From contig JAJFLA010000018.1 of assembly GCA_021772935.1 (NCBI GenBank), forward strand, positions 1-43,272: a stretch of 43,272 nucleotides of DNA, in the 5' to 3' direction. Source of the stretch: Gammaproteobacteria bacterium. Lineage in GTDB: Bacteria > Pseudomonadota > Gammaproteobacteria > Xanthomonadales > SZUA-36. This document shows positions 5,247 through 40,563 of this stretch, in pieces. A program made the position numbers and the translations under genes. The first letter of the stretch is position 1. Every line of letters starts with the position of its first letter. The notes under the pieces are model-generated. The model was not told the origin of the DNA. It saw nothing but the letters and a program-made list of their open reading frames with translations, and did no database searches.

Positions 5247-5291
5247 TGTCTCTTCCTCCTGAATCAAACATATAGGAATTCACAAAATCGA

Positions 5292-19307: not shown

Positions 19308-20429
19308 TCAACTCGAATTGCCCAGGCGGTTGTAGCTTGCCATGACACGTTTCAATGCATCATGGTCAATGGCTTCAAGCAGGTATCCGGGTGGTTTAAT
19401 GGTCGGTAGCGACCTGGCTGCGATCATCGCGTTGATGACAGCCTCTTCCACGGCATCTACCACCGCCGCATTAAGGCGGTCGCAATGAGCATCATTTATC
19501 CAGTCCATGGTGAATGTGCCGGGCTGTGGCTCCCCTATCGCCGGCATATAGATCGGGTTCGCCGTCGAAAACGCGAGCATCAGGTCACCAGAGTAATGGC
19601 CACCGGAAGTGCCGCTACGGCCAATCCCTAATGCCCCGCGTTTCGCGAGTCGCTGCAACTGGATCGGCAGCAGCGGTGCATCGGTGCCTATGATCACTAT
19701 GATCGACCCTTGTTCGCCCGAACCGAGCTCGGTCAGTATCGCATTTTTGTTCAGGTGGTGGCCGACCGGTACACCGAGGATATTGAGTTCGTGCCTTGTA
19801 CCGAAGTTTGACTGCACCAGTACACCAACTGTATAGGGCTTTTCGTCGATCTCAAGCAACCTCGAACTGGTTCCGGTGCCCCCTTTAAACTCGTAGGTCT
19901 GCATCCCTGCGCCACCACCCACATTGCCCTCCGCGACTGGGCCGGGGCCCGCTGACTCAATCGCCTTGAGGACATGTTCTTCACCTACATGACGCCCACA
20001 GATATCGTTAACCAGCCCGTCATAAGTTTCGGCAATTACCGGCATCGCCCATGCATGGTTGTTTTGAAAGTATTGCTGGTAGTGTTCTATCATCCAACCT
20101 GTTGTTGCGTGGTGGACGACACCTACCGAGTGTGTGTTGGTGAGGCAGATTGGCCCGAAAAAATACCCTGCATCCCTGATCCAATGGCTGCCGGTCATCT
20201 CGCCATTACCGTTGAGATCGAATTGCCCTGCCCAAACGGGATGAGCTTTTGCCTCCTTACCCCTGGGCAGTATCGCGGAAACCCCTGTATGAATACCTTT
20301 TTCGTCATCATGCAGGGTGCAGAAACCAACCTCGACACCCGTTACGTCAGTGATCGCGTTATTCGCTCCCGGGCTGCCGTGAAACGGCAGACCCAGGTCC
20401 CTGGCTCGGGGTTTGGTTTTCTCATGCAT
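19308..20429 (-). CDS. P1 (DmpA/BapA-type) self-processing aminopeptidase
   Basis: A 373-residue enzyme of peptidase family S58 (DmpA/BapA). AITDVTGVEVG and HTGVSAILPRG mark the N-terminal half, and GGGAGMQTYEFKGGTGTSSR (about residues 171-190) matches the family's central loop. Autoproteolysis should occur between Gly241 and Ser242 in GEQGSIIVIIGTDAPLLP, freeing the serine nucleophile. Known members remove N-terminal L-, D- or beta-amino acids from amides and short peptides. No signal peptide is seen from this ATG, so it should be cytoplasmic. Its start overlaps the MFS stop by 8 bp (ATGCATGA), so the two genes are coupled. Last gene of the receptor-led series. Confidence 0.85.
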   Translation of the reverse strand: MHEKTKPRARDLGLPFHGSPGANNAITDVTGVEVGFCTLHDDEKGIHTGVSAILPRGKEAKAHPVWAGQFDLNGNGEMTGSHWIRDAGYFFGPICLTNTHSVGVVHHATTGWMIEHYQQYFQNNHAWAMPVIAETYDGLVNDICGRHVGEEHVLKAIESAGPGPVAEGNVGGGAGMQTYEFKGGTGTSSRLLEIDEKPYTVGVLVQSNFGTRHELNILGVPVGHHLNKNAILTELGSGEQGSIIVIIGTDAPLLPIQLQRLAKRGALGIGRSGTSGGHYSGDLMLAFSTANPIYMPAIGEPQPGTFTMDWINDAHCDRLNAAVVDAVEEAVINAMIAARSLPTIKPPGYLLEAIDHDALKRVMASYNRLGNSS

Positions 20430-21555
20430 GTTGGGTGTACCTGCTCTGCGAGTTGAAGATATAGGCCAGTACAAACAAGACCAGGCTAACAAGCACACTG
20501 CCTGCAACCAGGTAGTTGACGGCAATGAAACTTTCACTGGTCACCATGTAAGCGGCGACAGCCGGACCCGCGGCGCCCCCTGCGCTGTGAAATGCCGGCG
20601 CGGCGGCCACACCACGGCCACTGCGATCAATTTCATTGACAGCCGCATACTGAAACGCCAATGAGTAGTTCCAGACAAAATTATACAGGGCTGAAGAAAC
20701 AAACAATGTCGTAGCAGTGAGACCGCTGCCGAGAAAAGCCACAGCGACGACCGTAACAACGGCGGCAACACCCAGTGGGCGAAGTCGCCCGAAACGATCT
20801 CCACACCAGGAAGCGAACAACGCGCCTGCGATGCCGAATGAGACACCGCCGGCGAGGCTCAAACCAATCTGTTGCTTGTCGATACCCGCCGTTTCGCCGA
20901 TCAGTTCGATATACGTCCAATAGCAGCCGACATTGAAGAAAAAGAAAAAGCAACCGCCGAGTGCGAACAATGGCGCGGGCCTCAACAAGCTGGCACGATC
21001 ACGATAGTTTGCCGCAGCCTTGCTGTTAGCAGGGAACCAGCGCAACAGGGATAGTGCTACCAGATCAAGGATTACCAAGGACACCAGCAAGGCATCAATG
21101 CCGCCGAGCGCTGCGAGATACGGCCCCGCGACCAGCCCGATCACCTGGAACAATACCTGGGCCGCGATAGAAAAGCCGAAATTTCTATCGGGTTTATCAC
21201 CATCGGACAGTGCGGTCAGCGCCAGCGAGTAAGCTGCGCCGCCACAAAAACCCACCATAAGCTGCGCTATCAGGAACGGTAAGAACTGGTCAACAAAGAT
21301 AGAAATGGTGTTGCCGGCTATCAGCCCGGTCAGCGTCAGTAAAAGTGCCTTATGCCAATCGATACGCCGTACCCAGATTGCCGCCAGTGCGGCACTTAAT
21401 GTCGAGCCCAGCATTACTACCGACGCGAACAGACCAACCTGCTTTTCACTAAACCCGAGGCTGTGGACCACCTCGCCGACCAGCAGTGGCAGAATCAGAA
21501 ATGAAGCAACCGCGATGAAACTGACACCGATCGCTGCTGCCAGCTTAGCCCGCAT
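20422..21555 (-). CDS. MFS transporter
   Basis: A 377-residue major-facilitator protein with about 12 transmembrane helices. The helix 2-3 loop AAIWVRRIDWHKALLLTL has the basic character of the family's conserved motif, and the central loop near residue 185 is charged (NSKAAANYRDRASLL). GAAGGTG precedes the ATG. It sits between the YtcJ-type amidohydrolase gene and the P1 peptidase gene, with overlap to the latter, so it probably carries a substrate or product of these hydrolases across the inner membrane. The cargo cannot be deduced. Confidence 0.8.
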   Translation of the reverse strand: MRAKLAAAIGVSFIAVASFLILPLLVGEVVHSLGFSEKQVGLFASVVMLGSTLSAALAAIWVRRIDWHKALLLTLTGLIAGNTISIFVDQFLPFLIAQLMVGFCGGAAYSLALTALSDGDKPDRNFGFSIAAQVLFQVIGLVAGPYLAALGGIDALLVSLVILDLVALSLLRWFPANSKAAANYRDRASLLRPAPLFALGGCFFFFFNVGCYWTYIELIGETAGIDKQQIGLSLAGGVSFGIAGALFASWCGDRFGRLRPLGVAAVVTVVAVAFLGSGLTATTLFVSSALYNFVWNYSLAFQYAAVNEIDRSGRGVAAAPAFHSAGGAAGPAVAAYMVTSESFIAVNYLVAGSVLVSLVLFVLAYIFNSQSRYTQHA

Positions 21556-21603
21556 ATTGCACCTTCATCCAGAAATCCGGGGCAATATGCGGGCTGATGG
21601 GTC

Positions 21604-23361
21604 TCATTGGGCCGCGGGCACTTCACCCTCGCGGGATTCTAAGAGACGGCCTTCGAAAAAGGTCATTGTGACCTCCGTTTCCCCAACATCATCGATTGGT
21701 ACTTCGAACAGGTTTCTGTCCAGCACAATGAAATCGGCTGATTTACCCACTTCGACCGAACCTGTCACCTCGCCCAGCCTGAGTGCCAGGGCCCCATTAA
21801 GCGTGTAGATACGGAGTGCTTCTTCCAACGTCACCGCCTGTTCCGCCCATAACTGACCTTCCGTCACACCGGTTGGGTCACGACGGGACACCAGGGCCTC
21901 GATACCGCCCCAGGGGTTCGCGCTCGGCGTGACGGCCGGCCAGTCGGTACCGGCCACGACCAGGGCGTTGGAATCCAGCAAATCCCGTACCGGAAAATAC
22001 AGTTCACCACGACGCCCTAACGCAGAAACGATCGCCCCAATAATCGGCGACGGGTGCCAGAGTATCGGTGAAATATCAGCGACTGCATCAAGCGCCGCGA
22101 ATCTCGGCACATCATCGGGGTGAATGTAACCTGCGTGTGCCAATTCATGCCGCAAGCCACTGAACCCGTTCGCTTCACGCGCGGCTTCTATCGCATCGAG
22201 TCCGACGCGCACGGACCTGTCGCCCGCTGCGTGCATCTTGACGGTGAACCCATTTGCATCGAGCGCGATCAGGTCCTTTGCCAGCGTTTCCAGCGGGACA
22301 TGCAGGTTGCCGGTGAACTGGTCCCCATGAACATCATCATGTAGATAGGGATCCAGCATCGCGGCGGTCCTGGCAGGCGTCGGCACGCCATCGAGGAAAA
22401 TTTTTACGAAATTGGTAGCCAAATGGTTTGATGCGTAACGATCGCGAATACGCTCTAATTCGCTCACGTCCAATGGTTCGGTCCTGTGTCCATACTGTGT
22501 TCTGATGCTGGCTGCTAAATGCACGCTCAACCCACCATGATTATTATCGACATCATGATAGGCGACCATCGCCGCCGACTCGTAGGCGCCCGCATCCTTG
22601 ATCCCGGTAATGCCAAAAGCGGCAGCCATCCGCAGAACTTCTTTAACTGCCGCGACATATTGCTCCGCTGACCAGTCCGGGACTGCCTTTCCGCCCATGC
22701 GCGATGCAGTTTCAAACAGCAGGCCATTCGGTACACCATCGGCATCACGACCGATAGATCCACCTTCTGGGTCAAGTGTGGAGTGTGAGATGCCCGCGAG
22801 TTCCAGCGCCTTCGAGTTAAACCAGGTGTTGTGATAGGAATCATCGTTCAGCACTACAGCGATGTCACCGGTGATCGCATCCAGCCACGCGCGTGGGGAT
22901 TCAATCTCGTATTGTTCGAAAAATGCACTCCCCCACTGACCGCCGATAATCCATTGGCTGTCTGGGTTTTTCTCAACGCATCCACGCAGCGCATGCGCAA
23001 CTTCATCCGGGTTTGACTGAATCGGGAACTGGCAATGGTAAAGAGAGCGGACCGCGCCCATGACGGGGTGAACATGGGCATCGTTGATGCCCGGCATGGC
23101 CATTTTGCCCTGCAGATCGACTATCTGAGTACCTTCACCAACATAAGTAGCTGCGCCGACACTATCGCCCACATAACTGTATTTTCCATCCTTGATCGCG
23201 ACCGCCTCGGTCCAGGGCTGTTGTGGATTTACGGTATAGATTTTTCCATTGGTCAACAGAGTATCTGCAACCTCCACTTGCTTTGTGGTTTCCTGAGAGT
23301 CGGGGCCACAAGCGGCCAGGAATACAGGGATCAACACCAGTAAAATTATTTTCCTCATCAT
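21604..23361 (-). CDS. YtcJ-type amidohydrolase lipoprotein
   Basis: A ~585-residue metal-dependent amidohydrolase. The signal ends with the lipobox VFLAAC, so it should be membrane-anchored in the periplasm. Zinc-ligand motifs are readable: GINDAHVHPVMG (HxH, near residue 95), KMHAAGDRSVRVG (His, near 376), ELAHAGYIHPDDVPRF (His, near 404) and VVAGTDWPAVTPSANPWGGI (Asp, near 474). The YtcJ/deformylase-like group cleaves formamides, imides and related cyclic or linear amides. The start is GTG 23364 or ATG 23361/23358; GAGG at 23367-23370 best fits the ATGs. It lies between the CehA-type gene and the MFS gene on one strand. Confidence 0.8.
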   Translation of the reverse strand: MMRKIILLVLIPVFLAACGPDSQETTKQVEVADTLLTNGKIYTVNPQQPWTEAVAIKDGKYSYVGDSVGAATYVGEGTQIVDLQGKMAMPGINDAHVHPVMGAVRSLYHCQFPIQSNPDEVAHALRGCVEKNPDSQWIIGGQWGSAFFEQYEIESPRAWLDAITGDIAVVLNDDSYHNTWFNSKALELAGISHSTLDPEGGSIGRDADGVPNGLLFETASRMGGKAVPDWSAEQYVAAVKEVLRMAAAFGITGIKDAGAYESAAMVAYHDVDNNHGGLSVHLAASIRTQYGHRTEPLDVSELERIRDRYASNHLATNFVKIFLDGVPTPARTAAMLDPYLHDDVHGDQFTGNLHVPLETLAKDLIALDANGFTVKMHAAGDRSVRVGLDAIEAAREANGFSGLRHELAHAGYIHPDDVPRFAALDAVADISPILWHPSPIIGAIVSALGRRGELYFPVRDLLDSNALVVAGTDWPAVTPSANPWGGIEALVSRRDPTGVTEGQLWAEQAVTLEEALRIYTLNGALALRLGEVTGSVEVGKSADFIVLDRNLFEVPIDDVGETEVTMTFFEGRLLESREGEVPAAQ

Positions 23362-23402
23362 CACTACCTCAATTTTCGCGTTTGATTTGTGGGATTTATG
23401 CT

Positions 23403-25544
23403 CTACTCAATGGTCGCTGGTTGTTTCTCACTCAATGCAGCTTGTTGTATCAGCCTTTCATATACAGAAATTGCCTGTCCAATGCGTCGATCCAACTCCT
23501 TTTTACTGGCGTTCCAACTAGAGATCAGGACATCTTCGGTGTCGAATCTCTCCCAGTCTTCATCCATGTCCGGTGTGGAAGTTCTAAAAGCACCCAACAC
23601 ACCGATATATTTTGAGGCAATGTCTTGAACGAGCTCTGGATTCCAAAAACGTTGATTACCATCGACATACAGATAGACCGGAGCTGTATGTGCTACGCGG
23701 TTTTCTTTTCCATAAGCACGTACGGCCAACCACAGAGAATCCTTAGCTTGAAAGTCATAGTTAAGCTCCAATGATTCCGACCCAGGTTTAGACTTCACCG
23801 TTTTGACAACTTTCCCATGAACCACAAGTTCAAGCTTTGATAAATTATCGATGTCGGGATTAACAGACGCTGTTGCTGAAATATTTACCAAGTCTCCCCG
23901 CTCCAGATCGAACTCGACCTGGTCAGAATCACCATTAACCTTGAACTCGATAACAGGTCCGTCGGAGACAAATGAACGCTTGCTGCTCCAGGCATCAAAC
24001 CAGGCTTGCGGAGTGAACGATTCGCCCACTTTGACATAGATACGTTCACTGCCTGCAATATGTATGTAAGGATAGTCGGACCCCGCTGCTGGAAGCACTT
24101 TGAAACCAAGGTTGAGGAAATCATAAAAGTAGCCGGTATTCAGAACACCCATTTGCAATATTTCGAAAAAGTCCACAGCCTCTAACGGAACATCCAACGC
24201 AAGGCCAAATTTGACATTAAACGCATCAATCGCCACATGGGCATAACCCCATAGTCCGCCGTCCTGGTGAATAAGTTTTGCAATATTATCGTAGAGGAAA
24301 TAATCTTTTTCTGTCCAAACGAGCCTGGTGGTATTCAGGCCTATGGTGTGACCACGATGTGACGTGCGCGGCGACTCCTGTCCTGACACTAAAGCATGAT
24401 CTGTGTCGACAAAGTGTCCAGCGCGACCAAAGGCATATTGAGGGTAGCTTTCATTTGATCCAATATTGGTTACCTGCAGTAAATTGGCAACATGAATATC
24501 TTCGGCCTCGGTGTATGCAAGAATACGCTTGTTCCTGGAGGGGTCCGGCCGGGCAATATGGATATGATCGTCCCCCGAATACCAACCCTTCGCTGGCATA
24601 TTTATCCAGCGCTTCAATTTGATATTGATGCGGCTGACTTCACCGGCCTTGATCTTGATTTTCTGGTGGACGATGCGGTATTCCGGACCCTTGTAAACCA
24701 GCAGGTCGTAACTTCCCTCAGGCGCCCTGGCCAAATAGTTACCGTCCACATAGAACACGTAGCGGCCTTCGCTCGACCAGGCCTTTGCTGTAGTGAGCAA
24801 GGGCCACTGCCTGAACTGCTCTCCAAAAGGCTCCAACACAACGGCATCATTACCCGGCAGTGGGCTACGACCCTGATTATCATACAAACCCACGCGCACG
24901 GAATCCGAAAAATTGTCTTCGTTGTGAATGCTTAGCTCGAGAAACCCCTGTTGAGCAGCTTCGGGCTGCTGTCGTTGTTCACGGGTGATTTTTATGTCAC
25001 AAAGTGCCAACTCCCCATTGACCTCTTTATTCTGTGGGTGTTTTGCGCCCAGAGCACCGATGGCAAAGTCAGTCTTTTCATATTTTCTGTTAGCGAAGCG
25101 CGCGCGCTCCAACTGCACCGTGACCCGTTCCCATCGTTCCTTATAGTCGGGGTTGAAACGAAGCTGTTTTGCCCTGGGGTTGATCGCATAGTCGTAGGAA
25201 ATATTAAAGCCATCCGTTTTGCTGCGGTCGAACAGCAATTCAAGCGAAACAGTTTCATCGATATCAAAGGCAAATTGGTCATCAACATCAAAGAAAAAAT
25301 ATGGTCCTACCAGGCATTGATGACCATCACGTTCCTCAACCCGTCCGGCTCGCCGCCAGGTCACAAAGCTGTCTCCGCCATGAAAATCAATATTCATCGT
25401 CAGGGTGCGCGAGATATTGACATCTGATTGCCAGTCGAGCTGTTGTTTTCCAAGCGGATGTTTGCTGTGTGCGAGACTGGTTTCTACTGGAATACACATA
25501 TATATAAGTAGCACTATTAAGCACTTAAAACAGACGGCTTTCAT
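23403..25544 (-). CDS. CehA/McbA-family metallohydrolase, exported
   Basis: A 713-residue exported protein. The signal peptide (FKCLIVLLIYMCIPVETSLA) is followed by about 290 residues of beta-rich domains. A PHP-type metallohydrolase core then starts with KGWYSGDDHIHIARPD (about residues 320-334) and includes EAEDIHVANLLQVTN, WGYAHVAIDAF, FFEILQMG and AAGSDYPYIH as metal-binding segments. CehA and McbA from carbaryl degraders, which hydrolyse N-methylcarbamates, belong to this family. A carbamate, ester or amide substrate is therefore plausible. The protein should act in the periplasm. It is co-oriented with the neighbouring amidase genes with a 20-bp gap. Confidence 0.8.
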   Translation of the reverse strand: MKAVCFKCLIVLLIYMCIPVETSLAHSKHPLGKQQLDWQSDVNISRTLTMNIDFHGGDSFVTWRRAGRVEERDGHQCLVGPYFFFDVDDQFAFDIDETVSLELLFDRSKTDGFNISYDYAINPRAKQLRFNPDYKERWERVTVQLERARFANRKYEKTDFAIGALGAKHPQNKEVNGELALCDIKITREQRQQPEAAQQGFLELSIHNEDNFSDSVRVGLYDNQGRSPLPGNDAVVLEPFGEQFRQWPLLTTAKAWSSEGRYVFYVDGNYLARAPEGSYDLLVYKGPEYRIVHQKIKIKAGEVSRINIKLKRWINMPAKGWYSGDDHIHIARPDPSRNKRILAYTEAEDIHVANLLQVTNIGSNESYPQYAFGRAGHFVDTDHALVSGQESPRTSHRGHTIGLNTTRLVWTEKDYFLYDNIAKLIHQDGGLWGYAHVAIDAFNVKFGLALDVPLEAVDFFEILQMGVLNTGYFYDFLNLGFKVLPAAGSDYPYIHIAGSERIYVKVGESFTPQAWFDAWSSKRSFVSDGPVIEFKVNGDSDQVEFDLERGDLVNISATASVNPDIDNLSKLELVVHGKVVKTVKSKPGSESLELNYDFQAKDSLWLAVRAYGKENRVAHTAPVYLYVDGNQRFWNPELVQDIASKYIGVLGAFRTSTPDMDEDWERFDTEDVLISSWNASKKELDRRIGQAISVYERLIQQAALSEKQPATIE

Positions 25545-25564
25545 AAATCTCTCTCTTTCCAGAG

Positions 25565-27097
25565 TTATATTGATAGTGACGGCCTGTGGTCAAACCACGG
25601 CGCCGCCCGTTCCAGTTGGGCGCAAACACTCAATAACAATGCATCTTCACCATTGCGTGCACTGAGCATCGCGGCCAGTGGCAGGCCACCGGTCGAGAGC
25701 CCCATTGGCACTGAAGCTGAGGGCTGGCCGGTCAGGTTGAACAGATGGGTATAGGCCGAATATTTCTTGAATCGTGTAACAAAGCTGTCAACCGTGTCAT
25801 CAGGCTGTGCATTGATGACGCCGAGCCTGGGCGGGGGCGTCGTCGTAACCGCCTGCAGCACAATGTCATACCTCTCTTGAAATCGTGCCATGCGTGCAGC
25901 CGCTGCATAGGCCACGTGACAGGCCGATATATACGCCTGCGCGCTTTGCTCCAGCCCGACACGGGTGAATGCCTGCGACAACGACTCCAGGCCTATTGAA
26001 CCAATCGGCTTGCCGATGGCTCTGGCCAGATTGTCCATGCCCTGGGAAAACTCTGAGAGCATCAGAATATTCTGCGTATGGTTGAGTTCATCGTGATTGA
26101 TTCCGGGTGTCGCTTCCTCAACTGAGTGGCCCAAATCTTCGAGTAAGTGCGCCGTGGCCAACACAGCTTTGCTAATCTCCGAATCCATTTTGACATCCGG
26201 TTCAGTCAGGTTGAGAGCAATCCGCAATTTCCGCGGCTCGGTCTGTGTCGCCTCGAAGTATCCCTTCCCGATGCCCGGTGCTGCGGCCGGTGCACCGGGC
26301 TCGTAACACGCGGTTAGATCCAGCAGGAACGCGCTATCTCTTACTGTTCTGGATAGTGCATGTCCGACACTCATCACAGAAGGACCCAATTCGGTACCTG
26401 GCCCGCGTGGCGTCAACATCCTTGTCGGCTTGAAGCCGAAAACGCCGCAGGCCGAAGCCGGTACCCTTATTGAGCCACCGCCGTCGGTGCCGTGAGCGAT
26501 CGGAACGATCCCGGCGGCAACCGCTGCGGCCGAGCCACCGCTCGAGCCACCGGTCGAATAATCAAGGTTCCATGGATTGTGACAGGCACCATATGCGGTG
26601 GACTCCGTCGTCAGTGCCATGCCGAATTCAGGAGTGTTGGTTTTTCCAAAAATCACCAGACCGGCGCGTTTGTGCTTTTCTACCAGTGTCGAATCACGCT
26701 TTGAATCGAAGCCGAACAGGGAGCGTGAACCTCCGGTCGTCGGCGTCCCGGCCAGTTGTACACCAAGATCCTTGAGCAGAAACGGCACACCTGCCAGCGG
26801 ACCACGCGGCAAGCCCTTGGCGATCGTAGCGTACGCCAGTTCATAGTGTTTGAGGGTTACCGCATTGAGCTTTGGGTTCAATGCCTCAACACGGCGTATG
26901 GCTTCGTCCAGCAACTCCTTTGGTGTTACTTTACCCCTTCGAACCAATGTCGCCAGGTCAATCGCATCGGATTGATCATAAAGGTTGGATATGTTGTTTT
27001 GAGCTATACTTTCACCCCTGCTCAGCGCCAACGCAGGTGCTGCAACTGCTAAACCCGCAACCGAGGTCGTGAATTGCCTGCGGCTAAGTTTGGACAC
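25565..27097 (-). CDS. Tat-exported amidase (amidase signature family)
   Basis: A 510-residue Ser-cisSer-Lys amidase. The N-terminus MSKLSRRQFTTSVAGLAVAA carries the twin-arginine motif SRRQFTT, so it is exported folded. Catalytic Lys is in FLLKDLG (near residue 107), the cis-Ser region in STGGSSGGSAAAVAAG (near 181-196), with the nucleophile in GTDGGGSIRVPASACG (near 203-218). The start is GTG with GAGGAG upstream. Family members cleave carboxamides, amino acid amides, carbamates or N-acyl compounds; specificity is not visible. It follows the other amidase by 26 bp. Confidence 0.88.
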   Translation of the reverse strand: MSKLSRRQFTTSVAGLAVAAPALALSRGESIAQNNISNLYDQSDAIDLATLVRRGKVTPKELLDEAIRRVEALNPKLNAVTLKHYELAYATIAKGLPRGPLAGVPFLLKDLGVQLAGTPTTGGSRSLFGFDSKRDSTLVEKHKRAGLVIFGKTNTPEFGMALTTESTAYGACHNPWNLDYSTGGSSGGSAAAVAAGIVPIAHGTDGGGSIRVPASACGVFGFKPTRMLTPRGPGTELGPSVMSVGHALSRTVRDSAFLLDLTACYEPGAPAAAPGIGKGYFEATQTEPRKLRIALNLTEPDVKMDSEISKAVLATAHLLEDLGHSVEEATPGINHDELNHTQNILMLSEFSQGMDNLARAIGKPIGSIGLESLSQAFTRVGLEQSAQAYISACHVAYAAAARMARFQERYDIVLQAVTTTPPPRLGVINAQPDDTVDSFVTRFKKYSAYTHLFNLTGQPSASVPMGLSTGGLPLAAMLSARNGEDALLLSVCAQLERAAPWFDHRPSLSI

Positions 27098-27123
27098 TGA
27101 TTCTTCTCCTCAATATTTTATAA

Positions 27124-28548: not shown

Positions 28549-28733
28549 GGCTTTTATCCTATTAAACCCTCCCGGGCGCTTTAATTTACGCCCCGGTGGG
28601 GAAGTCAATATTGAGCCAGGGCGCCTCTTATCTATTCATGAACTCGTATTTTACATCCAAAATGCCCAGCTTCTGCGGTGTAAATCTTGCCAATAGCGAA
28701 CTATTACCTGCGATTCACATCTTGAATCCGGAC

Positions 28734-28764: not shown

Positions 28765-28778
28765 AAACCAGAGGCTCT

Positions 28779-31277: not shown

Positions 31278-31372
31278 ATAATTTGCCCTCGGCAGTTCAT
31301 GCTGCTCATTTAATTCGCTGGATGTCCCAAATGTATCCCAGTAACACGTATGCATTCCTTAAGCAGTGCTTA

Positions 31373-31422
31373 TGTATACATACTTATTGTTTATGTATAC
31401 ATATTTGTTGTTTATGTATACA
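31373..31422. promoter_or_regulatory. Triple TGTATACA operator, 21-bp phased
   Basis: TGTATACA occurs at 31373-31380, 31394-31401 and 31415-31422, exactly 21 bp apart, each within TTATGTATACA. Two helical turns separate neighbouring sites, so bound dimers face the same side. The same core lies at 39002-39009 and, with one mismatch, at 35570-35577 before the GntR gene. MatR, the GntR-type malonate regulator of Rhizobium, is recalled to bind TTGTATACAA-like palindromes. These are the likely operators of the receptor operon. Confidence 0.75.
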
Positions 31423-31508
31423 CATTATTTCTACCAACTGCAAGAAATTACTTGTGCTGCTTGTCTCCTGATCCGGTAAACCTAACTGTTCGAATCCGCG
31501 CCCATGTT

Positions 31509-32606: not shown

Positions 32607-32676
32607 AACTATTACCTCGCACACAAAGTGTTTTTTGAGATATATAGGCTAACAAGTGTGTGATTGGCTGTCCCGA

Positions 32677-32722
32677 CCCGGAAGTAGGGTTCTGTAAAGA
32701 GGCCGCCCCCCCTAAAGTAGGG
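32677..32722. promoter_or_regulatory. Paired CCCTAaagTAGGG boxes before the HDAC-fold gene
   Basis: CCCTAaagTAGGG (32710-32722) is a perfect palindrome with a 3-bp spacer; CCCGGaagTAGGG (32677-32689) is a second copy with two mismatches, 33 bp away (three helical turns). They lie 31-36 bp or more upstream of a TATATA -10 candidate (minus strand, 32641-32646). The adjacent MalT-like LuxR protein is the natural candidate to bind them and activate the gene at 32606. Confidence 0.55.
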
Positions 32723-35461
32723 CTAATTGATAAGCCGAAGTTGCTGCGCGACCAACGCAGCAGACGTACGGTTTTTAACGTTAAGTTTCCCGAAGATATT
32801 TTTAACGTGCCACTTGACCGTGCTCTCAGCGATCGCCAGTTGCTCACCGATCTGCCCATTCGAGCGACCTGACACGATGAGCTTGAGCACGTCTATTTCA
32901 CGCACGCTAAGCTCTTCAGCCAGCCCGTGCCCGACTTTGACCCGATCATCCCGTTGCCCGGTTGTACGACTGGACTTATCGATAGCTACCCGGATTGACT
33001 GGTATGAATGGTGGGCCGATGCTGACAGCTCTTTATACGCACAGCCCTGAACTTGTTTGAGCATCAACCCAAGCTTCTTACCTTCATCCAGGAATATCCG
33101 TAGAAAGCCAGACAATGGCGACAGGCTCAAGGCTGCAACAATATGCTTCGCCATCGAGTCCTTCGCGCCGCAATCGAACTCCGCAACAGCCATCAGGATC
33201 AGTATCTCAATCGACTGCTGGATACGCCCTGCCTTGATCGCCAGGTGGCGCAAGCGCCGAAGGTCATGCAATGCATCGTCTGATTGCCCGCGTGCGAGCA
33301 GTAAACGTGCCCGGATCAAGCCTCTCATGCAAGCAGCCGGTTCCCAACGGTTGGTGAGATCGGCACATTTCCCACTCATGCCAATATCGAGCCTGCTTGC
33401 GATGCGCTCCGCAGCAGCTACTTCATGCTGGTTGATCAACATGCGAATAAAATCGTTTTCGACCAACAGTAACAGGCGACGGAGATTTCTACGCTCGCAG
33501 ATCAGGCGTATTTTCGTGTAACAGTGTTGCGCATCATTCCGGCGATGTTGCGCAAGCCTGATCCGGGCAAGCGTGATATATCCGAGCACCAGCGCTTCTG
33601 CGATCGTGCACTCCTCGACCAGGCCGATATTCGCCGCTATCAGGCGTTCTGCCTCCTCCAGCCGGTTCCACTCATAGAGCACAACACCCTGCATCAGCCG
33701 CGCCACTGCCGCGCCCGAGGATCGTTCACCGCAATCCAGAATCGAGACATCTTCGGATTGCCGAAATTCTGCGGCCGCACTGTGCATCTTTCCCTGGATG
33801 AGATTCAGCATACCTGAGAAGATACTGCTATAGGCGACGCCGAATGAGGAGCCCGCCTGTTCGTGGTAGCGGCGAGACTTGGCAAGTGCTTCGCGTGCGA
33901 GCTCGAACTCACCTTTCACGAGGCGCGAGTATCCGAGCATGTTGTACATCACCCCCAGGTGAAAAGGCAGGGCAAGCCTTTCCCGCAGCGGTTCGCTTGC
34001 AAGTTGTTCCAGCATCTCGACGTCGTCTTGCACGCAAGCAACGCCTGCACGCAGAACCTTCATCTCTTCCTGCAATGCCGCCAATACTTCGCCTCCTTCC
34101 TTTTTCAACTTTTCTTTCCGGCGTTCGATGATGTGCCCGGCCTGATGCAAAGCCTGTGCAGCCTCTTCCGGCCGATTCATGTGAAACAGCGCCCAGCACC
34201 GCAACATGGGTAACTGTGGCCGTCGCTCGGTTACAGCATCCGGGAGTTTGCTGAGCCAGTTGTGCAGGCGTGGCATCTGGCCTCTTTGTAAAAGGCGTGT
34301 TGCATGTTGTTCGACGAGCAATGCCGCTCGGTCAAAGTCACCGGACTCCAACGCATAATTGACCGCTTCGTTATCAAAATGTTGCTCTGCAAACCACAAG
34401 CTCGCTCGCTTGTACAAGTCTTCAACGACTGTGGAGTAGCGTCTCTCGAGTTGGCTCAAAAGGAACTCGCGAAATAGGTGATGGTAACGGTACCAGGTAC
34501 GTCCCTCGTCCAAAGGCAACAGAAAAGTGTTACCTTCGAGCTTGTCGAGCACGTCCTGGCAGTCGTCGCGTCCCACAAGGCACTGGCAGGATTCCGAACT
34601 CATGCGTTCCAGTATAGATGTGTAGAGCAGGAATTCCTGGATATCCTGCGGTAAACCGTTCAGTACATCCAACGCAAGATACTCTGCGACATCCTTTGCC
34701 TTACCTGAGAACGCATGGATAAATTCATCACGGCGCCCACTCTGGCGCAATGAAAGGGAAGCGAGTTGCAATCCGGCCACCCAGCCTTCTGTCCGTTCCA
34801 ACAGGGTATTGACCTGGTCATCGCTCAGGTCAAGTCCGCGGGTATCACGCAGAAACTGTGCTGCTTCTGTGCCATTAAAACGTAAATCCGCCGTGGAAAT
34901 GTCCACTACCTCCGCATGCGCACGCAGGCTCGCAACGGGCAAACCGGGTAATGAACGACTTGCCAACAGGAAATACAGATTCGACGGCCCGTGGGCAATA
35001 AATGTCCCGATGATCTCCGTAACAGCATCTGACTCGACGTTATGAAAATCATCGAGAAAAATGACGATTTCCTGGCCGGTCGCCGCAATCTCGTTAATCA
35101 GGCTAATAACAATCTCACCAGGATCGACCTGCGACCGGCTTTCCAGCGTACGCAGACTCTCCTCACCCAGGTCTGCAATCTCGTTCTGCAGCGCACTGAT
35201 GAGATAACGTAGAAACTCTGCCAGTTCAGAGTCACTCCGGGCAACAGAAAACCAGGCACACTGGTAATCCTCGCCACGTAAAAGATCAAAGCACTGTGCC
35301 AGCAAGGTAGTTTTGCCATAACCCGCCGGTGCGGTCACAAGGACCAACTTTGGCAAATTGCCAGGGCTCAGCAGTCCGCCGAGGCGTCCCCGTGGAATCA
35401 AGCCGGATCGCGCCACCGGCGGATACAATTTGGTGACTATGATGTCATGTTGTAGTTGCAT
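32723..35461 (-). CDS. MalT-like LuxR-family ATP-dependent activator
   Basis: A 912-residue STAND-type activator. Walker A APAGYGKTTLLAQ (near residue 45) and Walker B IVIFLDDFHN (near 130) form the NTPase module, followed by a long helical TPR-like sensor region (about 300-830). The C-terminal LuxR helix-turn-helix contains LSVREIDVLKLIVSG and NGQIGEQLAIAESTVKWHVK. The start at 35461 (MQLQHDIIVTKLYPP) fits the MalT-like N-terminus better than the ATG at 35500. It is co-oriented with the HDAC-fold gene and divergent from gntR. It probably binds an inducer, multimerises with ATP and activates promoters with CCCTA-TAGGG boxes. Confidence 0.87.
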   Translation of the reverse strand: MQLQHDIIVTKLYPPVARSGLIPRGRLGGLLSPGNLPKLVLVTAPAGYGKTTLLAQCFDLLRGEDYQCAWFSVARSDSELAEFLRYLISALQNEIADLGEESLRTLESRSQVDPGEIVISLINEIAATGQEIVIFLDDFHNVESDAVTEIIGTFIAHGPSNLYFLLASRSLPGLPVASLRAHAEVVDISTADLRFNGTEAAQFLRDTRGLDLSDDQVNTLLERTEGWVAGLQLASLSLRQSGRRDEFIHAFSGKAKDVAEYLALDVLNGLPQDIQEFLLYTSILERMSSESCQCLVGRDDCQDVLDKLEGNTFLLPLDEGRTWYRYHHLFREFLLSQLERRYSTVVEDLYKRASLWFAEQHFDNEAVNYALESGDFDRAALLVEQHATRLLQRGQMPRLHNWLSKLPDAVTERRPQLPMLRCWALFHMNRPEEAAQALHQAGHIIERRKEKLKKEGGEVLAALQEEMKVLRAGVACVQDDVEMLEQLASEPLRERLALPFHLGVMYNMLGYSRLVKGEFELAREALAKSRRYHEQAGSSFGVAYSSIFSGMLNLIQGKMHSAAAEFRQSEDVSILDCGERSSGAAVARLMQGVVLYEWNRLEEAERLIAANIGLVEECTIAEALVLGYITLARIRLAQHRRNDAQHCYTKIRLICERRNLRRLLLLVENDFIRMLINQHEVAAAERIASRLDIGMSGKCADLTNRWEPAACMRGLIRARLLLARGQSDDALHDLRRLRHLAIKAGRIQQSIEILILMAVAEFDCGAKDSMAKHIVAALSLSPLSGFLRIFLDEGKKLGLMLKQVQGCAYKELSASAHHSYQSIRVAIDKSSRTTGQRDDRVKVGHGLAEELSVREIDVLKLIVSGRSNGQIGEQLAIAESTVKWHVKNIFGKLNVKNRTSAALVAQQLRLIN

Positions 35462-35569
35462 GTCGCACCCACGCGGAAACAGATAGGTTAAATTTACCAT
35501 GTATTGATGAAGTTCGGGGTTCAGACATGGCTGCTCTGTCCTTATCTGATATACAATGTGACCCGTTTA

Positions 35570-35577
35570 TGTATGCA
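35570..35577. promoter_or_regulatory. MatR-like operator before gntR, one mismatch
   Basis: TTATGTATGCACA differs by one base from the third receptor-operon site (TTATGTATACACA). It lies 12 bp before the gntR start and suggests autoregulation. A TGATATACAATG sequence at about 35547 may be a degenerate second half. Confidence 0.5.
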
Positions 35578-35589
35578 CAGGTCTGAATT

Positions 35590-36231
35590 ATGCGTCAATC
35601 TGCAAATCTGAAAGAAATGCTGGAAAGAGAAATCGTGACTGGAAAAATCCGTGCCGGTGAACGACTTGAAGAACTTGAAATTGCAAATCGCTTCGGCGTA
35701 TCGAGGACGCCCGTGCGCGAAGCGCTGATGATGCTGGAGGCCATTAATCTGGTCGAGCGTCGCCCGCGAAAAGGCGCTATCGTCAAGGGGGTGACCCTCA
35801 AGCGCCTGTTGCAGATGCTGGAGGCACTGGCTGAGCTGGAAGCGGTGGCAGGGAAACTCGCGGCCCGCCGTGGCAGGACACCGGAACTCGCCGAGATCCG
35901 TGCTGCACTCGAGGCATTGGACGAGGCCGAGATTGATAGCGAGCCGGATACCTACTACACCGCCAACATCCGATTCCACAGGGCGATCTATACCGCTTCA
36001 GGCAATGACGAGCTAATGCGTATAACCGAAGAATTCGCGGAGCGGATGGAACCTTTCCTGAGAACACAGCACCATTCCTCCGGGTGGATCGAAAAGAGTC
36101 GAAGGGAGCACAGAGAAATCCTGGAGGCGATCGAGTCACACGACTCAGAGACAGCCTACAACCTGCTTCTTGAGCACGTACACGTTGATACCAAATTGTT
36201 TGCTGAATTTGCGGCTGGCCTGAACGAATGA
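35590..36231 (+). CDS. GntR-family (FadR subfamily, FCD) regulator, MatR-like
   Basis: A 213-residue repressor. The N-terminal winged helix has GERLEELEIANRFGVSRTPV and REALMMLEAINLVERRPRKG (about residues 22-62). The C-terminal FCD domain carries the metal-ligand pattern NIRFHRAIY, REHREILEAI and LLEHVHV. The MatR regulator of rhizobial malonate (mat) operons belongs to this subfamily, and here the gene lies directly before a carboxylate transporter and the malonyl-CoA genes. It therefore probably senses malonate or a related diacid and represses through the TGTATACA sites. Confidence 0.85.
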   Translation: MRQSANLKEMLEREIVTGKIRAGERLEELEIANRFGVSRTPVREALMMLEAINLVERRPRKGAIVKGVTLKRLLQMLEALAELEAVAGKLAARRGRTPELAEIRAALEALDEAEIDSEPDTYYTANIRFHRAIYTASGNDELMRITEEFAERMEPFLRTQHHSSGWIEKSRREHREILEAIESHDSETAYNLLLEHVHVDTKLFAEFAAGLNE

Positions 36232-36307
36232 ACCCACCAACCCGCATACTACACCAGTCGGTCCCAGCCTTGGCTTGTCCAGCGGCAACACCCAGGATAT
36301 TGGTGCA

Positions 36308-37675
36308 ATGTACGGGTTAACGCGAGTGAGTCATGTCATCGTACGGGTCGTTGATCGCTATTTACCCGAACCCTTCGTTTTCGCGATCGTGATGACAGCA
36401 GCCACCATCGTGCTTGTGCTACTGGTGACGCCAGCGGGCCCAACCGAAGTCTTTGCTGCCTGGGGTGGCGGGCTCTCGATGCTGCTCGCATTTACCACCC
36501 AGATGTGCCTGATGGTACTTTTCGCCTACACAGTGGCCCACATCGGGCCGGTGCCACGGTTGCTGGCGCGGCTCGCAAGTATTCCCGGTTCCGCGAAGAG
36601 TGCATATATTTTTGCAGCCGTATTTGCCGGGCTGGTCGCGCTGGTCGCGTGGCCGCTGGGGGTCATACTTGGTGGGCTGATGGCACGTGCTATCGGCAAC
36701 AGTCTGCGAGAACGTGGCGTCCGGGTTCACTACCCCCTGCTGGGCGGTGCCGCTTTTGGCGGTTTCGTCATCTGGCACATGGGTTATTCAGGATCAGCGC
36801 CGCTATTAACAGCCACACCGGGGAACCCGCTGGAAGCACAGTTAGGAGGGCTCATCCCGGTAACCGAAACAATATTCACAAGCTGGAATCTTTCCATAGC
36901 TGTTCTAACCCTTGCCACAGTTGCAGTCGTCGCGGCACTGATGCACCCAGCAGATGAGAGTGAAATCATGGAGTGCCCTGCAGACAACCCGGCAAGCGCC
37001 GGTACGGTCACGGAGCGTTCCGCAGGTGACAGACCTGCAGGCCCCGCCCGGACCATCGAGAACAGCCGCTTACCAACCCTGCTCCTAGGGCTGGCATTGA
37101 GCGGTTATGTCGTTTACTGGTTACTTACCCGTGGCCTGCTATTGGACCTGAACATTGTAAACTGGACTTTTCTTGCTGCCGGCTTGTTATTGACCCGCTC
37201 CAGCTCAGAATACGGCTCAGTCATGCTCGAGGGCGGACGGGCGGTTGTGCCGATTCTGCTTCAATACCCGATGTATGCGGGCATCATGGGCATCATGCTC
37301 AAGACCGGCTTCGTTTCTGTGCTGGCGGAAGGGTTTGTGACGATCGCTTCGGCCGACACCCTTCCGTTTTTGGCTTTCTTATCTGGTGGGTTTATCAATT
37401 TCTTCATTCCTTCTGGCGGGGCGCAATGGGCTGTACAGGGGCCGGCATTCATAGAAGCTGCAAAGGTGCTGGGTACCGACCTGCCATTGGTCGTGATGGG
37501 TGTTGCCTATGGTGACCAGTGGACCAATATCATTCACCCCTTCGTGGTGATACCGCTGCTCATCATGACCGGCCTCAAGGCCCGCCAGGTACTCGCATAT
37601 TCATTCATTTTGTTTCTTGCAGCCGGTGTGACACTCGGCGGCGGTTTGCTACTGCTCGGCGGCACCTTGCCGTAG
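36308..37675 (+). CDS. AtoE-type short-chain carboxylate transporter
   Basis: A 455-residue membrane protein of the short-chain fatty acid transporter family (AtoE-like), with about 12 hydrophobic helices. Family-typical segments are VVDRYLPEPFVFAIVMT (about residues 11-27), FGGFVIWHMGYSGSAPLLTA (about 156-175) and GGFINFFIPSGGAQWAVQGP (about 358-377), plus YGDQWTNIIHPF. The start at 36308 is preferred over a TTG at 36275 because AGGAT lies 9 nt upstream. By context it should import malonate or a related carboxylate in place of MatC. Its 3' end overlaps the convergent decarboxylase gene by 27 bp. Confidence 0.83.
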   Translation: MYGLTRVSHVIVRVVDRYLPEPFVFAIVMTAATIVLVLLVTPAGPTEVFAAWGGGLSMLLAFTTQMCLMVLFAYTVAHIGPVPRLLARLASIPGSAKSAYIFAAVFAGLVALVAWPLGVILGGLMARAIGNSLRERGVRVHYPLLGGAAFGGFVIWHMGYSGSAPLLTATPGNPLEAQLGGLIPVTETIFTSWNLSIAVLTLATVAVVAALMHPADESEIMECPADNPASAGTVTERSAGDRPAGPARTIENSRLPTLLLGLALSGYVVYWLLTRGLLLDLNIVNWTFLAAGLLLTRSSSEYGSVMLEGGRAVVPILLQYPMYAGIMGIMLKTGFVSVLAEGFVTIASADTLPFLAFLSGGFINFFIPSGGAQWAVQGPAFIEAAKVLGTDLPLVVMGVAYGDQWTNIIHPFVVIPLLIMTGLKARQVLAYSFILFLAAGVTLGGGLLLLGGTLP

Positions 37676-38962
37676 CAAGACTCTCACCACGCGCGCGGCG
37701 GCCACTCGGTTCTCTTTCACATAGGCTTCGTGATTACTTTCAATGTGTCTGAGGTCATAGAGGTAGTTGACCGTGATGCCGGCCGATTGCGCGAACCCCT
37801 TGTTTGAGCGGTCTCCGAGCCAGTTGACCCGCTCCAGCCGTGCGCCATTACCAAGATGGAAGCGCGCAACAGGATCCAGAGGTTTGCCCTCGCTATTCTT
37901 TATCTCAAGAAGATATTCAGCCATTAGCGGTAAAAGCACCTGGCGCGCGTGTTCAGACTTTGCTGAGTCAGTCCAACTCGTATCAGCGAGCAGTTTGGCG
38001 GCACCCTCTCCTGCGTTATCACACTGGGTGATCCAGCGCGCAAACCCCGGAACCGGAGACAAGGTCACAAAGGTCTTGAGACTACTTAGATCACGCTTCA
38101 GGTCTTCCACCACCTGCTTGATGAGGAAATTGCCGAACGAAATACCACGCAACCCGTCCTGGCAGTTGGAGATAGAATAGAAGACTGCCGTGGTCGCCCG
38201 ACTGGCATCAACAATCTCGCGGTGTTCATCGAGCAGGGACTGGATAGAGCCCGGCATTTCCCCAGTCAGGGCAAGCTGGACAAAGATCAAGGGCTCATCA
38301 GCCAGTGAGGGATGAAAGAAGGCTGCGCAGCACCGATCCGGTGGCTCCAGCCGCCTGCGTAACTCATCCCAACCGTGGATTTCATGCACGGCCTCATAGT
38401 CGATGATCTTCTCCAGGATGTGGGCCGGTGTCGTCCAGTCGATCGGACGCAGTACCAGGAACCCCCGGTTGAACCAGGATGAGAGCAGGTGCACGAAGTC
38501 GGCATCAACCACTGACAAGGCAGGCTCCGCGCCGAGATGGCCGATAAGTTGCCGACGCATTTCAACAAGAGATGAAGTTCCCCCCGGTGCGAGATTGAGC
38601 CGGCGGAGTAATTCATGGCGGGGGGGTTCGGTTTCGCTGGCCAGCTGTGCCTGGGTTTGCGGCGACTGATCGATCGCAAAGGCTTTGGCGGCTGCAAGCA
38701 CCCGCCCAGGATCAGGCCCGAAGTCCCTTGCCAGCAGGCGGAAAAATTCAAGCTTCTCGTTCTCGCTGGCAATCGCAAAGGCGCTATGCATCTCGTGTGC
38801 GATGGCAACACCCGATGCCTCACCACGGCTCGACAGAAGCTGCCGGCAAAGTTCTTCCATGTTGCCAACGTTCTTAGCCAGACCCCTTCCGGGAGTCAGA
38901 AAGCTGCGCCCCCGATCGCCGATCGATGTGAGAAGATCATGGAAGAATGTTGTTCGATTCAT
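37649..38962 (-). CDS. matA: Malonyl-CoA decarboxylase
   Basis: A 437-residue cytoplasmic enzyme converting malonyl-CoA to acetyl-CoA and CO2. It has the all-helical N-terminal domain (about 1-130) and the acyltransferase-like catalytic domain with TTAVFYSISNCQDGLRGIS, GNFLIKQVVEDLKRDL and SPVPGFARWI. The C-terminus has HLGNGARLERVNWLGDRSNK and ITVNYLYDLRHIESNHEAY, all typical. The ATG at 38962 is used; a GTG at 38980 is the alternative. It is divergent from the malonyl-CoA synthetase with the TGTATACA operator between them. In Rhizobium the equivalent gene is matA. Confidence 0.9.
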   Translation of the reverse strand: MNRTTFFHDLLTSIGDRGRSFLTPGRGLAKNVGNMEELCRQLLSSRGEASGVAIAHEMHSAFAIASENEKLEFFRLLARDFGPDPGRVLAAAKAFAIDQSPQTQAQLASETEPPRHELLRRLNLAPGGTSSLVEMRRQLIGHLGAEPALSVVDADFVHLLSSWFNRGFLVLRPIDWTTPAHILEKIIDYEAVHEIHGWDELRRRLEPPDRCCAAFFHPSLADEPLIFVQLALTGEMPGSIQSLLDEHREIVDASRATTAVFYSISNCQDGLRGISFGNFLIKQVVEDLKRDLSSLKTFVTLSPVPGFARWITQCDNAGEGAAKLLADTSWTDSAKSEHARQVLLPLMAEYLLEIKNSEGKPLDPVARFHLGNGARLERVNWLGDRSNKGFAQSAGITVNYLYDLRHIESNHEAYVKENRVAAARVVRVLLRQGAAEQ

Positions 38963-39000
38963 GGTACGGGACTCATTCACGTATCCAAAAACACTGTATC

Positions 39001-39031
39001 ATGTATACATTAAATACGAGTATTGTATAAT
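39001..39031 (+). promoter_or_regulatory. MatR-like operator overlapping the malonyl-CoA synthetase promoter
   Basis: ATGTATACAT (39001-39010) is a perfect palindrome with the same core as the three receptor-operon sites. A perfect TATAAT (39026-39031) stands 17 bp downstream of where the -35 would be, placing the operator on the -35. Binding should block transcription of the synthetase gene and perhaps of the divergent decarboxylase gene. Confidence 0.65.
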
Positions 39032-39054
39032 ATAGTCAATGACAAGAACAGACG

Positions 39055-40563
39055 GTGATTAACCGGGTGAACCTTTACAAAATCTTCCGTGACCAATTCG
39101 ACGCCCACTTCAACCAGCCGTTTCTGATATCAACCGGAGGTTCACACTGCAGTTACGGTGATATCGACCGCCTATCTGCATGTTTTGCTGCCACACTGAA
39201 AAAGCTTGATGTTGACGCCGGAGACCGTGTGGTCGTGCAGGTGAACAAGTCACCCGATGCGGTGGCTTTGTATCTCGCCTGCCTGCGAATTGGCGCTGTG
39301 TACGTACCTCTCAACACCGCCTACACCGCTGCTGAGATGTTCTATTTTCTCGGCGACGCAGCACCGGCACTGTTTGTCTGTGGTCCCGACTCCGTTGTCC
39401 AGCTTTCCGGGGTTGCCATGCAAGCGGGAGTTCCCGTGACTCTCACGCTCGGTCATTCTCAGGATGGAAGTTTTGCCGACAAGGCTCAAAAACTCCTGCC
39501 ACTTGACGAGTTGACAGACCGTGACCCCAACGATGTCGCTGCCATGCTCTATACCTCGGGTACAACCGGGCGCTCCAAGGGCGCGATGCTGACACTGAAT
39601 AATCTTGCCTCGAATGCGGTGACGCTGCACCAATACTGGGGTTTCAGACCCGGGGACGTATTGCTGCACGCGCTACCCATATTCCACGTGCACGGCCTGT
39701 TCGTCGCCCTGCACTGCGCGATGCTGAATGCATCCAGCATAATATTTCTACCGAAGTTCGATGCTGTCGAGGTAAGAAAACTGTTACCCGACGCGACAGT
39801 GATGATGGGCGTACCGACCTTTTACACACGCCTGCTGGATTGTGAGGATTTCGGACGCGAGCAGTGCAAGCACGTACGTTTGTTTGTATCCGGCTCTGCG
39901 CCGCTGACAGAGCAGACTTTCGCAGAGTTCGAACAACGCACAGGTCAAAAGATCCTTGAGCGTTATGGTATGACCGAGACCAACATGATCACGTCAAACC
40001 CGCTGGAAGGGGAACGGGTCGCTGGCACAGTGGGTTACGCCCTGCCGGGTATCCAAGTTCGTGTCGCCGACGAAACCGGTAAACCACTCCCCCCCAACAC
40101 GGTCGGATCAGTTGAGCTCAAAGGACCAAACGTGTTCACAGGCTATTGGCAAATGCCGGAAAAAACCAAACAGGAATTCCATGGCGACGGCTTTTTCATG
40201 ACCGGTGACCTCGGAACGCTCGCCGAAGACGGACGGCTGTCCCTGGTTGGTCGTTCCAAGGACCTGATTATCTCGGGTGGTTACAATATTTACCCAAAGG
40301 AGATCGAAGCTATTATCGACGAGGTGTCCGGTGTTGTAGAGTCTGCGGTCATCGGCATCCCTCACAGCGATTTTGGCGAAAGCGTGATTGCGATTGTAGT
40401 CCCAGGCAAGGACAATCCAGCCAGCGTAGCTTCGATTGTCAAAGCAACAGAGTCACAACTTGCCCGATTCAAACAACCTCGCAGAGTGGTTATGGTCGAT
40501 GAACTACCCCGCAACACCATGGGTAAGGTACAGAAGAACATCCTGCGTGATCAATACACCTGA
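39055..40563 (+). CDS. matB: Malonyl-CoA synthetase
   Basis: A 502-residue AMP-forming ligase that joins malonate and CoA. Motifs are LYTSGTTGRSKGAMLTLNNL (P-loop, about residue 164), PIFHVHGLFVALHCAML, ERYGMTETNMITSNPLEGER (characteristic of MatB rather than general acyl-CoA ligases), TGDLGTLAEDGRLSLVGRSK and the catalytic lysine in PRNTMGKVQKN. GTG at 39055 is the annotated start; GTG 39067 is also possible. With the decarboxylase and the transporter it forms a complete malonate-to-acetyl-CoA route. Confidence 0.9.
   Translation: MINRVNLYKIFRDQFDAHFNQPFLISTGGSHCSYGDIDRLSACFAATLKKLDVDAGDRVVVQVNKSPDAVALYLACLRIGAVYVPLNTAYTAAEMFYFLGDAAPALFVCGPDSVVQLSGVAMQAGVPVTLTLGHSQDGSFADKAQKLLPLDELTDRDPNDVAAMLYTSGTTGRSKGAMLTLNNLASNAVTLHQYWGFRPGDVLLHALPIFHVHGLFVALHCAMLNASSIIFLPKFDAVEVRKLLPDATVMMGVPTFYTRLLDCEDFGREQCKHVRLFVSGSAPLTEQTFAEFEQRTGQKILERYGMTETNMITSNPLEGERVAGTVGYALPGIQVRVADETGKPLPPNTVGSVELKGPNVFTGYWQMPEKTKQEFHGDGFFMTGDLGTLAEDGRLSLVGRSKDLIISGGYNIYPKEIEAIIDEVSGVVESAVIGIPHSDFGESVIAIVVPGKDNPASVASIVKATESQLARFKQPRRVVMVDELPRNTMGKVQKNILRDQYT

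Follow-up and report, generated by a model that had tools for sequence, protein, structure and literature searches.

The 43,272-nucleotide stretch examined here (the window; contig JAJFLA010000018.1, positions 1 to 43,272, of a gammaproteobacterium of the SZUA-36 lineage, Xanthomonadales, assembly GCA_021772935.1) carries between positions 19,308 and 40,563 a locus of uptake, hydrolase and regulatory genes that is, on balance, probably a catabolic island for an amide-type compound under a malonate-type GntR regulator, the acid part of the compound being, or becoming, malonate. A reading of the sequence alone had already proposed the uptake and stepwise hydrolysis of such a compound with malonate as a product. 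The gene families and the conserved gene order support uptake and hydrolysis, and the regulatory sequence adds independent support for the link to malonate, while what is said here about the compound itself is guesswork.

The predicted regulatory wiring of the locus, which comprises the boxes and the regulator, is well supported. Three GntR-type palindromes lie 21 bp apart in the gap of 231 bases between the histone deacetylase (HDAC)-fold gene and the TonB-dependent receptor gene, whose start is probably at 31277, and hence upstream of the TonB operon (Table 1). The core TGTATACA is also present in exact form between the malonyl-CoA decarboxylase and matB genes, and in degenerate form before gntR. 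With up to two mismatches allowed, TATGTATACATA is found at five sites in the 43 kilobases (kb) of the window, where 1.11 would be expected (a count of five was reached in 0 of 100 shuffles), and all five fall in the three promoter regions concerned; exact TGTATACA occurs four times, against 0.37 expected. Over the whole genome only four sites are found with up to one mismatch, three of them at this locus, the fourth (C7:81135, L164) preceding a membrane-fusion-like efflux gene, labelled by reading the sequence, for which no link was seen. A scan for sigma-70 promoters in this material gave the same counts as in shuffles.

The same box recurs in unrelated malonate operons. Within 36 stretches round decarboxylase genes, taken from 34 genomes of the class and amounting to 568 kb, TGTATACA is present five times, four of these being at the start of a decarboxylase or gntR gene and the fifth lying within a gene that is unrelated (L117); the majority of the stretches contain none. 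One box lies between the decarboxylase and the gntR homology (L108), another 42 bases before gntR (L115), and genome G486 has two, with a spacing of 21 bp, where its decarboxylase gene starts (L112). Eight malonate promoter regions were inspected, and the exact core is present in five of them (G486, Pseudosulfitobacter, R. leguminosarum, Ruegeria and S. meliloti). The MatR site of R. leguminosarum has reportedly been published as TCTTGTA/TACACGA, and the R. leguminosarum promoter inspected here contains these letters. According to the part of the source consulted, the sites of FadR-type GntR regulators consist of TKGT/ACMA boxes, and in a few groups, including that of MdcY, GT and AC stand two bases apart (PMC4494728), a spacing also seen in the boxes of the window. 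The GntR protein itself shows 32-44% identity to eight GntR proteins encoded beside malonate genes and 22% to one from another pathway.

Compared with the MatR-type malonate operon of rhizobia and roseobacters, in which gntR is followed by a TRAP/MatC carrier, decarboxylase and matB, the window shares a regulator of the GntR/FCD type, the genes for the decarboxylase and MatB, and a TGTATACA box among the regulatory sequences. It differs in having an AtoE-like carrier (PF02667) instead of the TRAP/MatC carrier and in the orientation of decarboxylase and matB, which are adjacent but divergent rather than in tandem, and it also has boxes before the TonB-hydrolase operon. Because the promoter of that operon carries a control site of the kind seen in known malonate operons, the imported compound may well yield malonate, and it is on this ground that we infer malonate as a product of the hydrolysis.

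The locus is rare. Of 299 sampled genomes of the order, 4 contain the HDAC-type gene (E<=1e-100), namely the genome of the window, two others of the same genus (G025, a second species, and G026) and one of another genus (G012). The loci of the latter three were laid out by tblastn with the window proteins. In the window the genes stand, from left to right, in the order S58 peptidase, major facilitator superfamily (MFS) transporter, Amidohydro_3 protein, CehA-type protein, amidase with a twin-arginine translocation (Tat)-like signal, second amidase, TonB receptor, HDAC-type protein and MalT-like regulator, transcribed on the minus strand from the MalT-like gene towards the S58 gene, and then gntR, atoE, decarboxylase and matB. 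In G025 this order is kept up to atoE at 74-91% identity, which exceeds chance; the CehA-type gene is missing between the same neighbours, and the contig ends 196 bases past atoE. The G026 locus holds the Amidohydro_3, CehA-type, second amidase, TonB, HDAC and MalT-like genes, followed by matB next to the MalT-like gene, and that of G012 holds the Amidohydro_3, TonB, HDAC and MalT-like genes with unrelated neighbours on both sides. On the gene sets of these four loci, they appear as a graded series, with a fixed core of MalT-like, HDAC, TonB and Amidohydro_3 genes to which the amidases, the CehA-type, MFS and S58 genes are variable additions. A frame or assembly artefact is ruled out, because the gene order is preserved in three other genomes. 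Relatives of the CehA-type gene of any length (E<=0.001) occur in 18 of the 299 genomes; full-length ones (69-71%) were found only in G026 and in a contig of a Saanich-type metagenome-assembled genome (SI037_bin171), where a 38% MalT-like gene adjoins the CehA-type relative.

Among the four loci, matB is present in two and gntR-atoE in two, the decarboxylase is seen in one, and one has no malonate gene. By sequence, MatB belongs with the true malonyl-CoA synthetases, its nearest solved relative being the Rhodopseudomonas-type MatB 4fuq. At E<=1e-100 it was detected in four of the 39 family genomes, those of the window, G026, G011 and G034; in G011 a contig end lies 131 bases before matB, and in G034 matB stands in a different neighbourhood. 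There (L039, 3482-10880) matB (49%) and an enoyl-CoA-hydratase-like gene come directly after the gene of another TonB receptor (33%), and genes for a fumarylacetoacetate-hydrolase-like protein and a cupin are present as well (labels from sequence reading), which gives the family a second TonB-matB pairing. In G026 the last 34 matB codons occur once more about 7.5 kb beyond matB (L010:13079-13180), at 73.5% identity to the window, a sign of past duplication or rearrangement.

Homologous loci in which the malonyl-CoA genes are never adjacent would speak against the proposed tie to malonate; what was found instead is gntR-atoE adjoining the locus in G025 and matB adjoining it in G026, together with boxes before the TonB operon. 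The tie is not universal, as G012 and G026 illustrate, and the decarboxylase is present in only 2 of the 39 family genomes and 2 of the 299 order genomes. In the promoter equivalent to that of the TonB operon, G025 has two diverged GTATAC boxes, also 21 bp apart (L053 10197 and 10218). In G026, GTATAC cores precede the start codons of the TonB and HDAC genes at a distance of a few bases, none of them being TGTATACA, and the eight GTATAC in 37 kb are at about chance level; no GTATAC is found within 20 kb in G012.

Several observations weigh against the favoured reading and limit how far it can be pressed. G012 has the core with no malonate gene beside it, and in G026 matB is the one malonate gene at the locus, with gntR, atoE and decarboxylase all missing there. 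The genomes of G025, G026 and G012 yielded no decarboxylase, and that of G025, whose contig ends 196 bases after atoE, no MatB (E<=1e-100) either. The motif was found by eye, and in the window first. The three boxes of the TonB promoter form a 21-bp tandem repeat and are not independent, and they therefore count as one event. A reversed-pattern control also gives four matches in the genome, so that it is the clustering of the boxes, not their number, that is unusual. A single chance match in either AT-rich promoter is not a remote event, its probability under an order-1 model being 0.021 or 0.031. The TonB boxes of G025 have lost one base of TGTATACA, and none of the sites with up to one mismatch in that genome lies at the locus; the comparison of boxes rests on two genomes with gntR at the locus and two without. 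Finally, two of the eight malonate promoters have a core with one mismatch (G510 and Pseudoroseomonas; L109 and L130), and one has none (G660).

Profile scans bear out the genes that had been listed from the sequence alone, including the bordering gntR, AtoE-type transporter and malonyl-CoA decarboxylase and synthetase genes (Table 1). The families were named correctly, but the MalT-like LuxR (LAL) regulator between the HDAC gene and gntR was overlooked. Nor are there 'six different C-N-hydrolase families in a row': the six genes represent five families, because both amidases belong to PF01425, and they do not stand strictly in a row, because the receptor and the MFS gene are interspersed. The GTG-initiated open reading frame called for the S58 protein overruns its start; the ATG right before the DmpA-like part is at 20429, where the gene overlaps the end of the MFS gene. 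Elsewhere in the window, a choloylglycine-hydrolase/C45-like gene (13890-15089, minus strand) is a further candidate C-N hydrolase near the locus, outside the conserved order, and the left part encodes a sulfatase-modifying-factor-like protein (4161-5267, minus strand) and an IPTL-CTERM sorted protein (16268-16984, plus strand).

Table 1. Genes and putative regulatory boxes of the locus, with positions in the window, the matches that support them and identities to the related loci.
Feature	Position	Strand	Support
S58 (DmpA-type) aminopeptidase	19308..20429	-	PF03576 8.7e-108; DmpA 1b65 1.2e-112; 75% in G025
MFS transporter	20422..21555	-	PF07690 2.3e-24; 81% in G025
Amidohydro_3 (YtcJ-like) amidohydrolase with lipobox	21604..23364	-	PF07969 8.9e-87; 74-79% in G025, G026, G012; core gene, all four loci
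CehA/McbA-type metallohydrolase, signal-peptide-like start	23403..25544	-	NF038032 2.2e-47, 162 bits (cut-off 80); accessory
Amidase with twin-arginine-like signal	25565..27097	-	PF01425 1.3e-95; NylA 3a2p 1.6e-82; 84% in G025; accessory
Cytoplasmic (second) amidase, PRK07486 subfamily	27124..28608	-	PF01425; NF005686 568 bits (cut-off 465); 84% in G025, 80% in G026
TonB-dependent receptor	28779..31277	-	PF00593 and PF07715; 76-78% in G025, G026, G012; core gene
GntR-type palindrome, upstream of TonB operon	31371-31382		TATGTATACATA
GntR-type palindrome, upstream of TonB operon	31392-31403		TATGTATACATA
GntR-type palindrome, upstream of TonB operon	31413-31424		TATGTATACACA
HDAC-fold amidohydrolase (HdaH/DmhA/PrpH type)	31509..32624	-	PF00850 8.2e-85; PDB matches; 83-91% in G026, G012, G025; core gene
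MalT-like LuxR (LAL) regulator	32723..35461	-	PF17874, PF00196; MalT model 420 bits, under 537 cut-off; 70-79% in G026, G012, G025; core gene
Degenerate GntR-type box between MalT-like gene and gntR	35568..35579		TATGTATGCACA, 2 mismatches; identical core in G025
GntR/FCD regulator, malonate (MatR) type	35590..36231	+	PF07729, PF00392; 91% in G025
AtoE-like short-chain fatty acid transporter (SCFA_trans)	36275..37675	+	PF02667 2.5e-102; 87% in G025
Malonyl-CoA decarboxylase	37649..38980	-	PF05292 9e-99; PF17408
GntR-type box between decarboxylase and matB	39000..39011		CATGTATACATT, exact TGTATACA core
Malonyl-CoA synthetase MatB	39055..40563	+	NF005702 (PRK07514) 769 bits (cut-off 558); RpMatB 4fuq 4.4e-166; 74% in G026

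The hydrolases have solved relatives of several kinds. The nearest to the Tat-type amidase is NylA (the next kind matching at 9.4e-49), and the nearest to the second amidase are GatA (2.5e-65) and an aryl acylamidase (5.8e-59). Malonamidase E2 of Bradyrhizobium is an amidase signature enzyme that gives malonate, and here too an amidase of this signature family adjoins malonate genes. It is nevertheless distant from the second and the Tat-type amidase, at 9.5e-27 and 2.9e-27 versus best PDB matches of 2.5e-65 and 1.6e-82, respectively, and a classic malonamidase is not the favoured reading of either, many other amidases scoring far better. In the acesulfame amidase clusters of Bosea, which are catabolic, an enzyme of the amidase signature family likewise releases a short beta-keto acid from its amide; unlike the window, these clusters, in the portion of the source consulted, have acetoacetate as product and a Mn-dependent sulfatase, with no malonate genes mentioned (PMC10413263).

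The HDAC-type protein keeps the zinc-site stretches GHH, DWDVHHGNG and EGGYN, and its best PDB matches are the HdaH lysine deacetylases (1.3e-109), DmhA (7.9e-106) and PrpH (1.5e-105), as expected for sub-cluster 1b of the HDAC fold, to which DmhA and PrpH are both assigned in the part of the source consulted (PMC11532494). DmhA and PrpH act on dimethoate and propanil, respectively, as small-molecule amidohydrolases, and, on that part of the source, these relatives show only that the sub-cluster can turn to small amides (PMC11532494); against the window enzyme the HdaH deacetylases, which belong to this sub-cluster too, have a slight edge in score, and for this reason its substrate is not readable from the sequence. 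Aligned with DmpA, whose nucleophile is Ser250, the S58 protein has Gly-Ser at the self-cleavage place. The CehA-type protein shares the NF038032 metallohydrolase domain with the CehA/McbA carbaryl hydrolases, above the curated cut-off, but no PDB chain matched it at 0.01, and nothing points to a carbamate as substrate. The compartments assigned in the sequence-only reading are in keeping with a SRRQFT twin-arginine-like motif on one amidase, a LAAC lipobox on the Amidohydro_3 protein and a signal-peptide-like start of the CehA-type protein; the placement itself stays a prediction from these motifs.

An association of amidases with malonate operons in general is at most suggestive. Relatives of the cytoplasmic amidase occur in 2 of the 36 decarboxylase neighbourhoods (G660 and G486, 39-41%), where 0.65 would be expected by chance (P of two or more = 0.14), and the enzyme as a marker of malonate operons is thus not significant. 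In a tree of 24 rows, from which six further amidases had been dropped by a motif filter, the G660 and G486 sequences share a broad clade with the amidase of the window, where they sit on separate branches alongside plasmid amidases. No amidase is annotated in the five annotated plasmid malonate operon records examined of 238 matching, the gene table being incomplete, and a sixth record examined (H28) has no annotation. In G486 the amidase gene (L112, 10754-12157) shares an operon with the decarboxylase and matB, its start codon overlapping the stop of matB, and the enzyme would be well suited for testing the idea of a malonyl-amide hydrolase. On R. leguminosarum pRL1 (L127, 733-10900) a malonate operon lies beside creatininase-family and cytosine-deaminase genes with an ABC transporter, perhaps another link between C-N hydrolases and malonate.

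It seems rather unlikely that the locus is merely an island of amide or xenobiotic hydrolases beside a separate malonate operon, with TonB boxes that are coincidental or belong to another regulator. The recurrence of gntR-atoE (G025) and matB (G026) at the same flank and the shared 21-bp phase of the boxes in the window and G025 both argue for more than a chance neighbourhood, as does the finding that two of the four MatB genomes are among the four with the locus (Fisher 0.045, one locus being cut by a contig end), whereas the core of G012 and the patchiness of the malonate genes are what chance neighbours would give. The malonate part may also be a recent arrival, because matB is followed, about 100 bases past its stop, by a remnant of an IS6-family transposase (window 40667-40960, plus strand; an N-terminal part at 58 bits, under the model cut-off), a possible trace of that event.

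Less probable still is the scavenging of peptides, beta-peptides or nylon-like oligoamides, with GntR sensing another short acid brought in by the AtoE-like carrier, such as acetoacetate, and with MatB and the decarboxylase secondary. NylA and DmpA are indeed among the nearest solved relatives, and plasmid relatives of the cytoplasmic amidase, those of the clade described above, lie near peptide transporters and aminotransferases, with no annotated malonate genes nearby (3 of 224 records examined). Of the nylABC pathway, a NylA-like amidase is seen. No NylC chain, on the other hand, is among the PDB matches of the S58 protein. The AtoE-like protein is probably a malonate carrier, although AtoE is not the usual one (no homologue in the 36 other decarboxylase neighbourhoods), and both the close relationship of MatB to malonyl-CoA synthetases and the malonate type of GntR and its boxes point away from a secondary role of malonate. 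Amide hydrolysis is known to lead to malonate in the oxidative pyrimidine (barbiturate) route, with its ureidomalonase, and an amidase acting as ureidomalonase would make the locus part of it; this is very improbable, given that TonB uptake and three exported hydrolases are ill-suited to a pyrimidine and that PF09663 barbiturase was found in none of six genomes including that of the window, a weak result in that no control genome matched either.

Under the favoured reading of an amide-catabolic island with malonate-type control, the TonB receptor would bring the compound into the periplasm, where the Tat-exported NylA-like amidase, the exported CehA/McbA-type metallohydrolase and the amidohydrolase lipoprotein would cut it. 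The MFS carrier would pass the fragments to the cytosol, in which the HDAC-fold amidohydrolase, the second amidase and the DmpA-type aminopeptidase would hydrolyse the amide bonds still left. Among the resulting acids, one would be, or become, malonate, which may also enter through the AtoE-like carrier; MatB would activate it and the decarboxylase would convert the product to acetyl-CoA, while in G026, with matB and no decarboxylase, malonyl-CoA could pass straight to fatty-acid synthesis. MatR and MdcY are repressors released by malonate or malonyl-CoA, and by likeness to them GntR is taken to act on three promoters, repressing that of the TonB-hydrolase operon by way of the three phased palindromes and those of its own operon and of decarboxylase/matB by way of one box each, until malonate or malonyl-CoA relieves the repression. 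Basal activity would admit some of the compound, and the malonate freed from it would open all three promoters in a product-induced loop. The MalT-like regulator, which belongs to the core even without malonate genes, could sense the compound itself and may add substrate sensing to this loop.

It is conceivable, and proposed here only tentatively, that the locus represents an undescribed pathway in which a malonate-sensing GntR regulon governs the import and bond-by-bond stripping of a malonyl-amide natural product or conjugate, the malonate then being burned, with the hydrolases added one by one to the four-gene core. No description of such a locus was found in the open-licence PMC literature. 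It is assembled from known parts. The usual view of malonate is that of a free acid of plants or soil that is taken up as such; if the proposal is true, a malonate regulon over a TonB receptor and amide hydrolases would suggest that malonyl amides serve as carbon sources in nature, and the GntR protein, the receptor and the HDAC-type enzyme could be used as baits for finding the compound. In the graded series of four loci, the growth of a catabolic island round a fixed core can be seen.

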